Part shown: positions 29,531 to 33,312 of the stretch, one piece after another
Layout of the letters: each line of letters opens with the position of its first letter
Numbering within the stretch: the first letter of the stretch is position 1
DNA from: a virus
Virus record (IMG/VR): IMGVR_UViG_3300049043_000083
Coordinates: 1 to 40,861 of that record
Reading direction: 5' to 3' (one strand)
Length of the DNA stretch: 40,861 bases
Notes under the pieces: generated by a model
Database searches by the model: none
What the model was told of the DNA's origin: nothing
What the model saw: the letters and a program-made list of their open reading frames with translations, nothing else
Translations under genes and position numbers: made by a program

Positions 29531-30628
29531 ATGTCCACAGCGCCGTTCAATCGTCGGCGGCAGCACCGCCAAGCGCGTCATCAACTGCCCCGGCAGCGTG
29601 GCGCTGGTCGGCCAGGTGCCGCCCGCGCCGTCTAGCCCGTACGCGGAAGAAGGCACCCTGCTCCACAACGCCATTGCGGCGATGCTGGAGGGCGCACAGC
29701 CGGAGGTCAGCCCGGAACTGATGGAGTCCAAGCTGACGCCCGCGCTGGCGGCGCTGGACTACCTCGACCCGTTCAAGGACGGCGAGTATTGCCGTCGAGT
29801 CGCGCGTTGAGTTCGGTGACGACATTCCCGGCGCGTTCGGCTAGCGCCGACCTTCTCATGCGCGTCGGCAAGATTGCGTACGTCATCGACTGGAAGTTCG
29901 GCTCCGGCGTCGCTGTCGAGCCGGAAGCCAACGAACAGCTGATGTTCTACGCCGCTGCAGCCATGCGGACGCCGGAAGTGCAGTGGGTGTTCGACGGGGC
30001 GGAGACCATCGAACTGGTCATCATCCAGCCGCCGCACGACGCCAAGCGTTGGGCCGTCACCCGCGAGCGGCTTGACCTGTTCGTTCGCGACTTCGAAGGC
30101 GGCTGTGCGGCTCGCCCAGGCAGCCGCACGCGCCGCCAAGGCCGGTGAGTGGTGCCGGTTCTGCCCGGCCAGAGCCCATCTGCCCGCAGCAGACCGGGGC
30201 GGCGGAGCGTGCGCTGAAGGTCCAGATGGACGCCGTTGACGTCCGGCAGTTGGGCGCGCATCTCCGCCTGGCGGATATGGTGGAGGACTGGAGCAAGAGC
30301 GTGCGCGGTTTGGCTTTACAGATGTTGGAGTCCGGTGTTACGGTGCCCGGGTACAAGCTGGTTGCCAAGCGCGCCACCCGGTCATGGGTGGACGAAGCGG
30401 TGGCGCTCGGGGCGCTCAAGGCGCTCGGGGCGGAAGAATCTGAACTGGTTGAACTGCGCTCTCCCGCGCAGGTTGAGAAGGCGCTCAAGGCGCGCAAGCT
30501 CAAGCTGCCGGGGGAATCTCACGGTCTCGATCAGTTCCGGTCACACGATGGCGGTTGAGGATGACCCTCGGTCGGCCGTCGTGCTCATCGGGCAGCAGGT
30601 TGCTGCGGCCCTTAGTAAACTTCAGTGA
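29531..30628 (+). CDS. DUF2800-like PD-(D/E)XK nuclease (about four frameshifts)
   Basis: About 366 residues when joined, the usual DUF2800 length. MSTAPF at 29531 (GGAGG ribosome binding site) continues, after a shift near 29548, with IVGGSTAKRVINCPGSVAL and YAEEGTLLHNAIAAMLEGA; then, after one near 29790, VEFGDDIPGAFGSADLLMR and AYVIDWKFGSG (catalytic D and DxK); after one near 30105, AKAGEWCRFCPARAHCP, a Cys cluster as in Cas4/AddB-type nucleases; and the end NLTVSISSGHTM after one near 30515. Such RecB-like exonucleases sit in the replication block of many podoviruses and siphoviruses. Confidence 0.8.
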
Positions 30629-30638
30629 GGAGACAGTC

Positions 30639-31277
30639 ATGTCTAGTTTGGTGAAATTCGCAGGCGCTGGCCTGCCCTCCGCTGAGTCCGTGAAGACCTG
30701 CTGTCCGCCGACCTCAAGACCCTTGACGCGGGCGGGGGGCTGGATGGTGTTGCCATCCTGAGGATGGACAAGACCGGACGCTGGGTGTTCGGCGCCGACC
30801 ATACCGAGGTCGAGTCCGACAGCGATTGGGCTGTCAACCCGTTCTCGTTTTTGCATGGGTTCATCGCGTGGGGCGAGTGGCGCAGCCGTTGGGCGAGGCC
30901 GATGGTGCCGGTGTCGGAACCGCTGCCCGAGATGGGCGCGGCCCCGGCGGGGTCGCAGCGGGGGTGGAAGAAGCAGATCGGATTCAGCCTCCAGTGTTTC
31001 GTCTGGCGCTGACGAAGGGCTGGAATGCCGGTATCACTGGTGACCTCGGTTGGCGGAAAGAAATCGGTGCAGGAACTGGCGATTGCCATCGCGCATCAGG
31101 TGGACAAAGACCAGACCAAGCCGGTGCCGGTGGTGCGCCTGAAGAAGGACCACTACCAGCATAAGAGCTACGGGCGAATCTTCACGCCGGTGTTCGAAGT
31201 CACCGGCTGGATGTCGCTGGGCGAGCCCGGACGCCGAGCCGGCCGCAGACATCGGTCGCCGTCGCCGCCTCGCGTAA
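30639..31277 (+). CDS. Conserved phage replication-module protein, unknown (about four frameshifts)
   Basis: About 212 residues when joined. MSSLVKFAGAGLPSAESV, then SADLKTLDAGGG, ILRMDKTGRWVFGADHTEVE, NPFSFLHGFIAWGEW, then, past a shift near 30990, SVGGKKSVQELAIAIAHQVD and KKDHYQHKSYGRIFTPVFEV. The combination RMDKTG.W..GAD..EVE ... NPFSF.HG.IAWG ... LKKDHYQHKSYGRI is a recurring protein located between the DUF2800-like and polymerase genes in related phages; a single-strand DNA-binding role is plausible from position (compare DUF2815) but not shown. It has a strong ribosome binding site (GTGAGGAGACAG). Confidence 0.6.
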
Positions 31278-31299
31278 TCCAGCATCAACCTGAAGGAGA

Positions 31300-31324
31300 A
31301 CGGGGCCGCAAGGCCCCGTTTTTT
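31300..31324 (+). terminator. Intrinsic terminator between SD and start of the polymerase gene
   Basis: ACGGGGCC (31300-31307) and GGCCCCGT (31312-31319) form a perfect 8-bp stem with a GCAA loop, followed by six T residues. It lies after the gene at 30639-31277 and immediately before ATG 31327. The best Shine-Dalgarno (AAGGAGA, 31293-31299) is upstream of the stem. If the stem forms, SD and ATG are about seven bases apart in space. Confidence 0.8.
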
Positions 31325-31326
31325 CT

Positions 31327-33257
31327 ATGACTCTTTGGATTGACTTCGAAAAAAATCAGAATGCAGCCTGACTGACGCAGGCGTCTACGGCTACGCCATG
31401 CACCGCTCAGACCGAGGTACTGTGCATGTGCTACGCCTTTGATGACGGCGACGTCCAGACATGGGCGCCGGGCCAGCCGTTCCCGCAGGACGTGTTCAGC
31501 TACGCCGGTCCCATCCATGCTCACAATGCGACGTTCGAACGTCTCATCCTGTGGTACGTTCTCCAGACCGACCACAAGTTGGAACAGTTCGTCTGCACCG
31601 CCGCGCAGGCCCGCGCCAACTGCGCACCTGGCAGCCTTGAGGACATCGGGCGGTTCATCGGGCGCCGGGATGCGCAAGAACCACACTGGCGCCGGCGCTC
31701 ATCCGCAGGTGCTGCGTCCCGCCGTTCAGGCACACCGAGCAGGACTTGGCCGACCTGTTCGCCTACTGTCGCGCAGGACGTGCGCGCCATGCGTGAGTCA
31801 GCCGGTTGCTGCGCGCCGCTGTCGCCGGTTGAGCTGGCCGACTACCACGCCAACGAACGCATCAATGACCGTGGCGTGCTCGGTGGACGCGGCGTCTGGC
31901 GCGCGCAGCGACACAGTACGCCGAGCGCGGAGACCATGGACATCCAGAACCGCGTGTGGGAGGTGACCAAGGGCCATGTGCTGTCCGCCCGCTCGCCGGC
32001 CATGCGCGTGTGGGTGCTGGACCGCCTGACGCCGGAGCAGTTGGACTTGACCGAGGTCAACGGCAAGGCCTGCATGGACAAGTCGCGCGCGCCAACTTGC
32101 TGGCTTGCCGATGACCTTGACCCCGGACGTGCGCGAGGTGCTGGAGTGCCGCGGACGCCATCTGGTCGTCCAGCGTCGCGAAATTCGGCAGGATGGCCAA
32201 TCTCGCCGATGAAGAGGACAGCCGTCTGCGCGGTGCGTTCGTGCTTGCCGGAGGCTCCGCTACCGGCCGCGCTGCGTCCTACGGCGCGCAAGTGCATAAC
32301 CTGCCCCGAAAGGTCGCCAAAGACCCTGTGGGCCTGCGGCAGGCCATCGTGCGAGGACACGCCTTGCCCGATGGTGTCGGGCAGACACTGAAGTCCATGT
32401 TGCGGCCGGCGCTCATCCCGCGCCGGGGCACGTCTTCATCGGCGCGGACTGGTCGGCCATTGAGGGGCGGGTGCAATGCATGGCTGGCGCAGTCGCCTGC
32501 TGGCGAGGAAAAACTGGACGTGTTCCGGTCTGGCCGCGACCCCTGATATCGGTGAACGCTGCGGCTACGTTCGGCGCGGCGTATGGCGCGTTGGCCGCTG
32601 CCGTGCAGGCTGAGGACCCAGAAGCCGTACAGCGGCGGCAGGTCGGCAAGGTTCAGGAACTGGCGCTTGGGTTCGCCGGGGCGTCGGCGCCTTTGCGGCG
32701 ATGGCGCGGGTTACGGCGTGACCGTCGAGCAGCCAAAACGCATTGTGGCCGCATGGCGCGAGGCGAACCCGTGGGCGCCGGTGTTCTGGCGGCAGCTGGA
32801 GGACGCCTACCTGGCCGCCATGCGCCGCCCAGGTGTGGAGCAGACCGCCGGCCGCGTGACCTACCTGTTCGACGGAAAACATCTCTGGTACATGCTGCCA
32901 AGCGGGCGTGTGCTCTGCTATCCGTTTGCCAAGCTCGCCGACGAAGGGCTAACCTACGCGAAAGCAGCATGGAAACCTAAGGCGGACGCGACGGAATGGC
33001 CGCGCGCCAGACTTTGGAGTGGCATTGCGTGCGAGAACGTCGTGCAGGCCACCGCGCACGACCTGCTGCGCGAGGCATTGCGGGTGCTGGATGATGTGGT
33101 TCTGCACATCCACGACGAAATCGTTCTGGAGGTGCCAGAACCCGCCGCTGAGACCGCCGCTCGGCGGCTGGAGACCGCCATGCAGACGCCGCCCGCATGG
33201 GCCGAGGGCCTGCCGCTGGTCGCGAAGGCCAAGACGTTGTTGCGATTCGGCAAGTGA
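31327..33257 (+). CDS. DNA polymerase, family A, with 3'-5' exonuclease (eight or more frameshifts)
   Basis: About 643 residues when joined. The start MTLWIDFE carries the Exo I acidic pair (DxE), then VLCMCYAFDDGDVQTW and IHAHNATFERLILWYVL (Exo II). The polymerase domain shows GHVFIGADWSAIEGRV (motif A, around 32430, after shifts), RRQVGKVQELALGFAG (motif B region, 32635-32680) and VVLHIHDEIVLEVPE (motif C, 33100-33140). It ends TLLRFGK at 33257. It replicates the phage genome with the adjacent primase-helicase. Breaks occur near 31355, 31400, 31670, 31760, 31890, 32085, 32425, 32500 and 32690. The start is placed by the T-run and terminator. Confidence 0.9.
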
Positions 33258-33258
33258 C

Positions 33259-33286
33259 AAAAAAAACCCCGGCGTGTGAGGCCGGG
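33259..33286 (-). terminator. Minus-strand hairpin with T-run, after the polymerase gene
   Basis: CCCGGC (33268-33273) and GCCGGG (33281-33286) with a seven-base loop, next to eight A residues on the plus strand (33259-33266), read on the minus strand as a GC stem followed by eight T residues. On the plus strand the run precedes the stem, so it would not terminate the polymerase transcript. No leftward gene ends here; it may insulate against antisense transcription or mark the end of an ancestral module. Confidence 0.5.
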
Positions 33287-33312
33287 CAGAAACCAACAAG
33301 AGGAGGATCAAC

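Follow-up and report, generated by a model that had tools for sequence, protein, structure and literature searches.

A terminator-like hairpin as the probable spacer of a split ribosome-binding site at the start of a phage DNA polymerase gene

In bacteriophage T4, genes 38 and 25 are translated from split, or accommodated, ribosome-binding sites (Nivinskas 1999; Malys and Nivinskas 2009; reviewed in PMC3014915). A hairpin cuts the distance between the Shine-Dalgarno (SD) sequence and the AUG from 22 to 5 nt in one case and from 27 to 11 nt in the other, as shown by mutation, reporters, and probing (PMC3014915). A hairpin is also present at the start of the DNA polymerase gene of T4 and RB69 (gene 43), where it serves as an operator: the polymerase binds it, its loop is conserved, and the ribosome-binding site is located downstream of it (PMC3014915). 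When we searched the open-access literature for terminators inside ribosome-binding sites, only the T4 cases were found.

The DNA examined here, referred to as the window, is an IMG/VR virus record of 40,861 bases with 61% G+C. It contains an element at the start of a DNA polymerase gene that resembles the T4 gene 38 and 25 sites in that a long SD-AUG distance at an intercistronic junction would be shortened by a hairpin. The T4 sites and the window module alike are retained among close relatives but missing from distant ones, and on every feature testable in silico the two agree. The window hairpin differs in carrying a U-run, whereas the review does not call the T4 hairpin a terminator (PMC3014915), and the phage group of the window swaps the hairpin sequence freely and places the module before different downstream genes. 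With the gene 43 operator, the element shares an RNA hairpin at a phage polymerase start, but here the hairpin would lie inside the ribosome-binding site and is not specific to the polymerase gene. Its G+C-rich stem, tetraloop, and T6 run are those of intrinsic (Rho-independent) phage terminators; unlike ordinary intergenic terminators, behind which the SD of the next gene is found (a tandem arrangement, seen in 17 clusters here), it has the SD in front. The gene order at the site is a DUF2800 exonuclease, an approximately 210-residue protein with an arginine tail, DNA polymerase family A, and a RepB-primase-like gene. The features are as follows.

29531 to 30626 (end approximate), plus strand: DUF2800 / PHROG 69 exonuclease gene, upstream, frameshifted, beginning with MSTAPFNRR at 29531; the homolog in relative L002 matches PF10926 (E 1.4e-64).
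30639 to 31277, plus strand: upstream gene, frameshifted, for a phage protein of about 210 aa with a C-terminal RRRR tail, phrog_9528-like by PHROG match and alignment of relatives.
31293 to 31299, plus strand: putative SD sequence AAGGAGA; GGAGA in close relatives L001, L003, L082, and L083, GAGGA in L002, and a weaker GGGGA, the only SD-like block, in L004.
31299 to 31320, plus strand: hairpin AACGGGGCC-GCAA-GGCCCCGTT, candidate structured spacer and terminator stem; the stem is kept in close relatives, and unrelated stems occur elsewhere.
31319 to 31324, plus strand: T6 run of the putative intrinsic terminator; T7-T8 in close relatives.
31327 to 33257, plus strand: DNA polymerase family A gene, frameshifted, start ATG at 31327, with an N-terminal DFE exonuclease motif; 64 to 66% identical to relatives L001 to L004.

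Frameshifts break nearly every gene of the window, including those for the polymerase (A7 run, 31348-31354) and the upstream protein (near 31225), in a pattern that reads like uncorrected long-read sequence. Because the record is full of frameshifts, the length of the T6 run and of other homopolymers may be off by one. The upstream gene begins with MSSLVKFAGAGLP at 30639 and ends with GRRRRLA* at 31254-31277. Since it stops at TAA 31275-31277 (after the frameshift), the SD, hairpin, and ATG are all intergenic. Its product probably has a role in ssDNA binding or replication; identification as DUF2815 was ruled out, as there was no Pfam match.

An earlier note on this DNA had described AAGGAGA, a perfect GCAA hairpin, T6, and ATG 31327, and sequence and coordinates are as it gave them. 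The hairpin consists of AACGGGGCC (31299-31307), GCAA (31308-31311), and GGCCCCGTT (31312-31320), forming a perfect 9-bp stem with 7 G-C and 2 A-U pairs immediately followed by T6, which is the sequence form of an intrinsic terminator. Folded alone, it has an energy of -18.3 kcal/mol (z -4.4; 0 shuffles as good). The automated terminator scan did not report the window hairpin, probably as a result of extending the stem into the U-run. The SD and AUG are separated by 28 nt in linear RNA, a distance that exceeds the working range, and by 6 to 8 nt with the hairpin closed, which bears out the claim that the SD is too far if linear and near if the hairpin closes. The stretch between hairpin and ATG is only TTTTTCT and harbors no SD. 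In first-order Markov sequences of the window's composition, searched on both strands for an SD, a perfect stem of at least 6 bp, and an ATG, a much looser pattern than the element itself, 0.22 matches per window are expected, with one site counted up to three times; the real window contains a single such site, whose stem has 9 bp and is followed by T6, and its position is exactly that of a gene start. A weak outer helix of the SD with the U-run and nearby codons is possible (-22.7 versus -18.3 kcal/mol). A second-layer helix that pairs the SD flank with polymerase codons 2 to 6 in the window fold was rejected, as no matching complementarity was seen in L002, L082, and L083.

Homology supports ATG 31327 as the polymerase start. 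The polymerases of 80 related IMG/VR contigs start at its position with the motif M-x(0-3)-[LIV][WYF]xDFE. The window frame breaks after 14 codons at the A7 run, which is one base short compared with the relatives and looks like a sequencing error. A true start farther downstream with its own SD, the outcome that would have spoken against the earlier note, fails in the relatives, in which homology begins at the ATG behind the hairpin.

To examine the junction in relatives, several hundred loci containing either the upstream gene or the polymerase were collected, and the sequence behind the stop of the upstream gene was read. The closest relatives retain the stem CGGGGCC/GGCCCCG, a T7-T8 run, and purines that resemble an SD (GGAGA or GAGGA, in one case GGGGA). 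Farther away, the layout recurs with unrelated hairpins: AAGGAG-agg-GGCGGC..GCCGCC-T7-ATG in L005 to L044, CAGGAGGAA-CGGGGGC..GCCCCCG-TTTTTTATCAG-ATG in L059, and AAGGAGAA-GCCCC..GGGGC-TTTTTTAGCC-ATG in L098. Seven loci (L051, L101, L102, L134, L164, L230, and L236) have the layout without a U-run, L051 reading AAAGGAGC-GGGGGCTG..CAGCCCCC-AATCTTTC-ATG. The U-run, kept in the clade of the window, is missing in about half of the hairpins with this layout in the wider group, and termination is therefore not essential to it. In many clusters the fold starts 6 to 9 nt past the upstream stop, and L095 and L105 have an overlapping stop-start TGATG without a hairpin. MW202483.1, the nearest annotated GenBank relative, has a different upstream gene and no hairpin at the polymerase start. 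An Rfam search of the window and junction loci gave no match at the gathering threshold.

Dereplication resulted in 46 junction clusters. In 24 of them, called nested, the start codon follows the hairpin within 11 nt and no SD intervenes; in 17, called tandem, the next gene has its own SD after the hairpin, and the SD in front is mostly lacking. The median energy of the SD in front of the hairpin was -5.75 kcal/mol in nested versus -1.8 kcal/mol in tandem clusters (p=0.005), and good upstream SDs were enriched in the former (Fisher OR 6.5, p=0.011), with 16 of the 24 at -4.5 or below. Effective spacing in these 16 was 6 to 12 nt (mean 8.9, sd 1.7), a range partly bounded by the method, in which a 16-nt SD segment was scored, and linear spacing was 25 to 50 nt (mean 32, sd 7.4). 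The hairpin-to-ATG distance, which is not bounded by the segment length, was mostly 6 to 11 nt in nested and 13 to 30 nt in tandem clusters. Three nested clusters (L050, L116, and L283) have no SD on either side, and five more have only weak SDs. Relative to composition-matched shuffles, the advantage of the upstream SD is only moderate, 13 of 500 shuffles being as good, and the purine-rich flank could be due in part to pairing with the U-run. A second, independent scan, which covered 396 terminators in 5.67 Mb of loci including unrelated phages, showed the same association: the median SD in front was -5.2 with an ATG directly behind the hairpin, -1.1 where an SD follows (p=0.004), and -1.6 where no open reading frame follows (p=0.0002). 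The next junction, between the polymerase and the primase-like gene, serves as an internal control and has a hairpin followed by its own SD, with none in front. In a tree built from the upstream protein, the nested and tandem forms interchange at least 8 to 12 times, and among nested forms there are 7 changes of the U-run. Tree-independent pairs lie in the expected direction (4 to 5 of 4 to 5), too few for significance, and the pair L074/L071 is weakened by an AGGAGG that overlaps the stem in L071. These comparisons suggest that the hairpin most likely acts as a structured translational spacer, with an SD upstream, none behind, and an effective spacing of 6 to 12 nt across differing hairpins.

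At other junctions of the loci, 10 formal matches to the nested layout looked like internal starts or gene-call errors, and none was convincing. Behind the polymerase stop in the window (33254-33290), an A8 run precedes a hairpin, CCCCGGC..GCCGGGG, that is terminator-like on the minus strand; many relatives have this site in similar form, an A-run and hairpin followed by their own SD.

The module precedes the polymerase in L002 to L004, L082, L083, and L632, and lies directly before other genes in L001 (MQIKPIQTRYKG...) and in L576 and L627 (M[FL]STVILTDDSR...). Likewise, another gene is behind it in L091 and L100, and the polymerase in L101. The displaced polymerase of L001 has no hairpin of its own. 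As different genes stand behind one module, it must be counted as part of the 3' end of the upstream gene, a point against its being a polymerase operator. A scan by hairpin sequence revealed a similar arrangement in Pseudomonas Pf filamentous phages before coaA, TGA-CAGGAGG-AGGGGCCGAAAGGCCCCT-TTTTT-ATG, in which the coaA start annotated by the depositors is exactly the ATG behind TTTTT. Pf relatives with a GGGG-type SD behind a different hairpin are without an upstream SD. The Pf copy is independent of those in the window group. Pf type 54-4/PfAC08, with a hairpin directly before the annotated coaA ATG, was not counted, as a second ATG with a GGTGA-type SD follows.

The element is probably a split ribosome-binding site like those of T4 genes 38 and 25, compact and indifferent to which gene follows, in which the spacer hairpin doubles as an intrinsic terminator. 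At the end of the upstream transcription unit, the stem and U-run would stop part of transcription. In read-through RNA, the hairpin would stay closed and take about 20 nt off the SD-AUG distance, presenting AAGGAG and AUG 6 to 8 nt apart to the 30S subunit, and whichever gene follows, here the DNA polymerase, would be served. The weak SD/U-run outer helix (about 4 kcal/mol) should give way to the anti-SD. Use of AAGGAGA by the ribosome with the hairpin closed, transcript ends at the U-run, and the extent of read-through are what we infer from the sequence. The dual use of one hairpin requires no regulation.

It is also possible, although unlikely, that the hairpin is a terminator only, AAGGAG being a by-product of the purine flank (the A-tract side) and the polymerase being translated by coupling or re-initiation from the upstream gene that ends about 49 nt earlier. 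The clear terminator form, the tight packing of stop and start with folds 6 to 9 nt after the stop in many clusters, the three nested clusters without any SD, and the TGATG overlaps without a hairpin in L095 and L105 would all fit. Against this reading, the upstream SD is stronger exactly where none follows the hairpin, half of the nested hairpins have no U-run, effective spacing stays at 6 to 12 nt though hairpin length varies, and the same correlation is seen in Pf phages. A lock on translation, in which the SD would be sequestered by the U-run and neighboring pyrimidines and the closed structure would repress, is improbable. Its outer helix is predicted in the window, L002, and L006, and in L052 with UCUUU replacing the U-run, but it contributes only some 4 kcal/mol, from A-U and G-U pairs, less than a typical SD:anti-SD pairing (about -9 for AAGGAGA), and the constrained effective spacing would be left unexplained.

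Regulation specific to the polymerase, by an autogenous operator such as that of T4 gp43 or by an attenuator that sets its level, appears the most improbable reading. It has a precedent in gene 43 of T4 and RB69 (PMC3014915), and the module does sit at the polymerase start and can terminate, but close relatives carry the same module before unrelated genes (L001, L576, L627, L091, and L100), the gene inserted in L001 shows that it does not move with the polymerase, and stems and loops vary across relatives. The earlier note had proposed that termination and translation are coupled to control the polymerase. Its view that read-through transcripts need the hairpin for translation is supported by the comparison as far as a structured spacer is concerned; control directed at the polymerase is not supported, given the identical module before other genes and the absence of a U-run from about half of the nested hairpins in the wider group. 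A broader proposal, which we regard as doubtful, is that RNA folds of several kinds can replace one another at the polymerase junction, from terminator and plain hairpins to loop-E-like hairpins and pseudoknotted RNAs of about 90 nt, some in tandem, and that all of them bridge the upstream stop or SD to the next AUG as structured spacers for ribosome re-initiation or docking, including large RNA modules inside the ribosome-binding site.

Other structured RNAs were observed at this junction in relatives. F2, of about 90 nt, occurs in L289:5646-5735, L103:974-1065, L053, L045, L169, L322, and many of L312 to L430, with the core GTTAAGCCAGC-NN-TC(A/G)AGGATG ... TTTTCTGG(C/T)TTTC ... AAATCGA. Among 110 distinct copies, strong covariation is seen in a closing stem, an internal stem, and a crossing G-C/A-T helix; the internal stem has most pair types at most positions and is paired in nearly all copies, and the pseudoknot is AAGCCAG/CTGGCTT. 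F2 is abundant in phages; it is present in at least 120 IMG/VR stretches, frequently flanked by two phage genes and sometimes exactly before the polymerase ATG, and had no Rfam match at the gathering threshold. F3, GGGG-AAAGCGGATGC...GCAGCGAGTA-CCCC with a loop-E-like GAAA/GAGTA internal loop, was found in L104, L124, L303, L070, L123, and L431 to L510 and in at least 120 IMG/VR stretches; it stands in tandem with F2 in L140 and L269 and had no significant Rfam match. F1, GACGCCCAGCCGGCGGTGGCGTC-TAACACCGGCAGC...GACAGCCCGGAAAGACGGGC, lies behind the upstream gene in L146, L175, and L181 to L191 and has a subthreshold resemblance to RF03044 Proteo-phage-1 (19 bits; gathering 42). Also behind the upstream gene, L056, L088, L283, and L309 share a conserved CTTGGCGGCGC..AAGGTAAGCCCTGTTCTGCATCCTGCTCGACACCTTCGAGTCCGCCAAC with a TATAAT-like box in front, possibly a separate noncoding RNA gene. 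In L018 (2091-2170), L020, L027, L029, and L031, a PAPS-reductase-like gene is inserted, and its start overlaps the stop of an 8-codon reading frame (ATGTTTGTTCTTTTGGAGTTGATATGA) that begins at the ATG following the hairpin. This raises the possibility of a leader peptide with translational coupling.

Compared with T4, what is new is that a terminator would act as the spacer, that hairpins are exchanged freely, and that different genes and phage families reuse the arrangement. If the split-site reading is correct, a single 35-nt stretch would be both a terminator and the spacer of a ribosome-binding site. Gene callers that expect the SD no more than about 15 nt away would put such starts in the wrong place, and a phage engineer who removed the "terminator" would silence the next gene as well. 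The nested and tandem junctions would provide natural matched pairs for testing structured spacers on the 30S subunit. A mechanism known mainly from two T4 genes would then extend to podovirus-like phages and the Pf filamentous phages.
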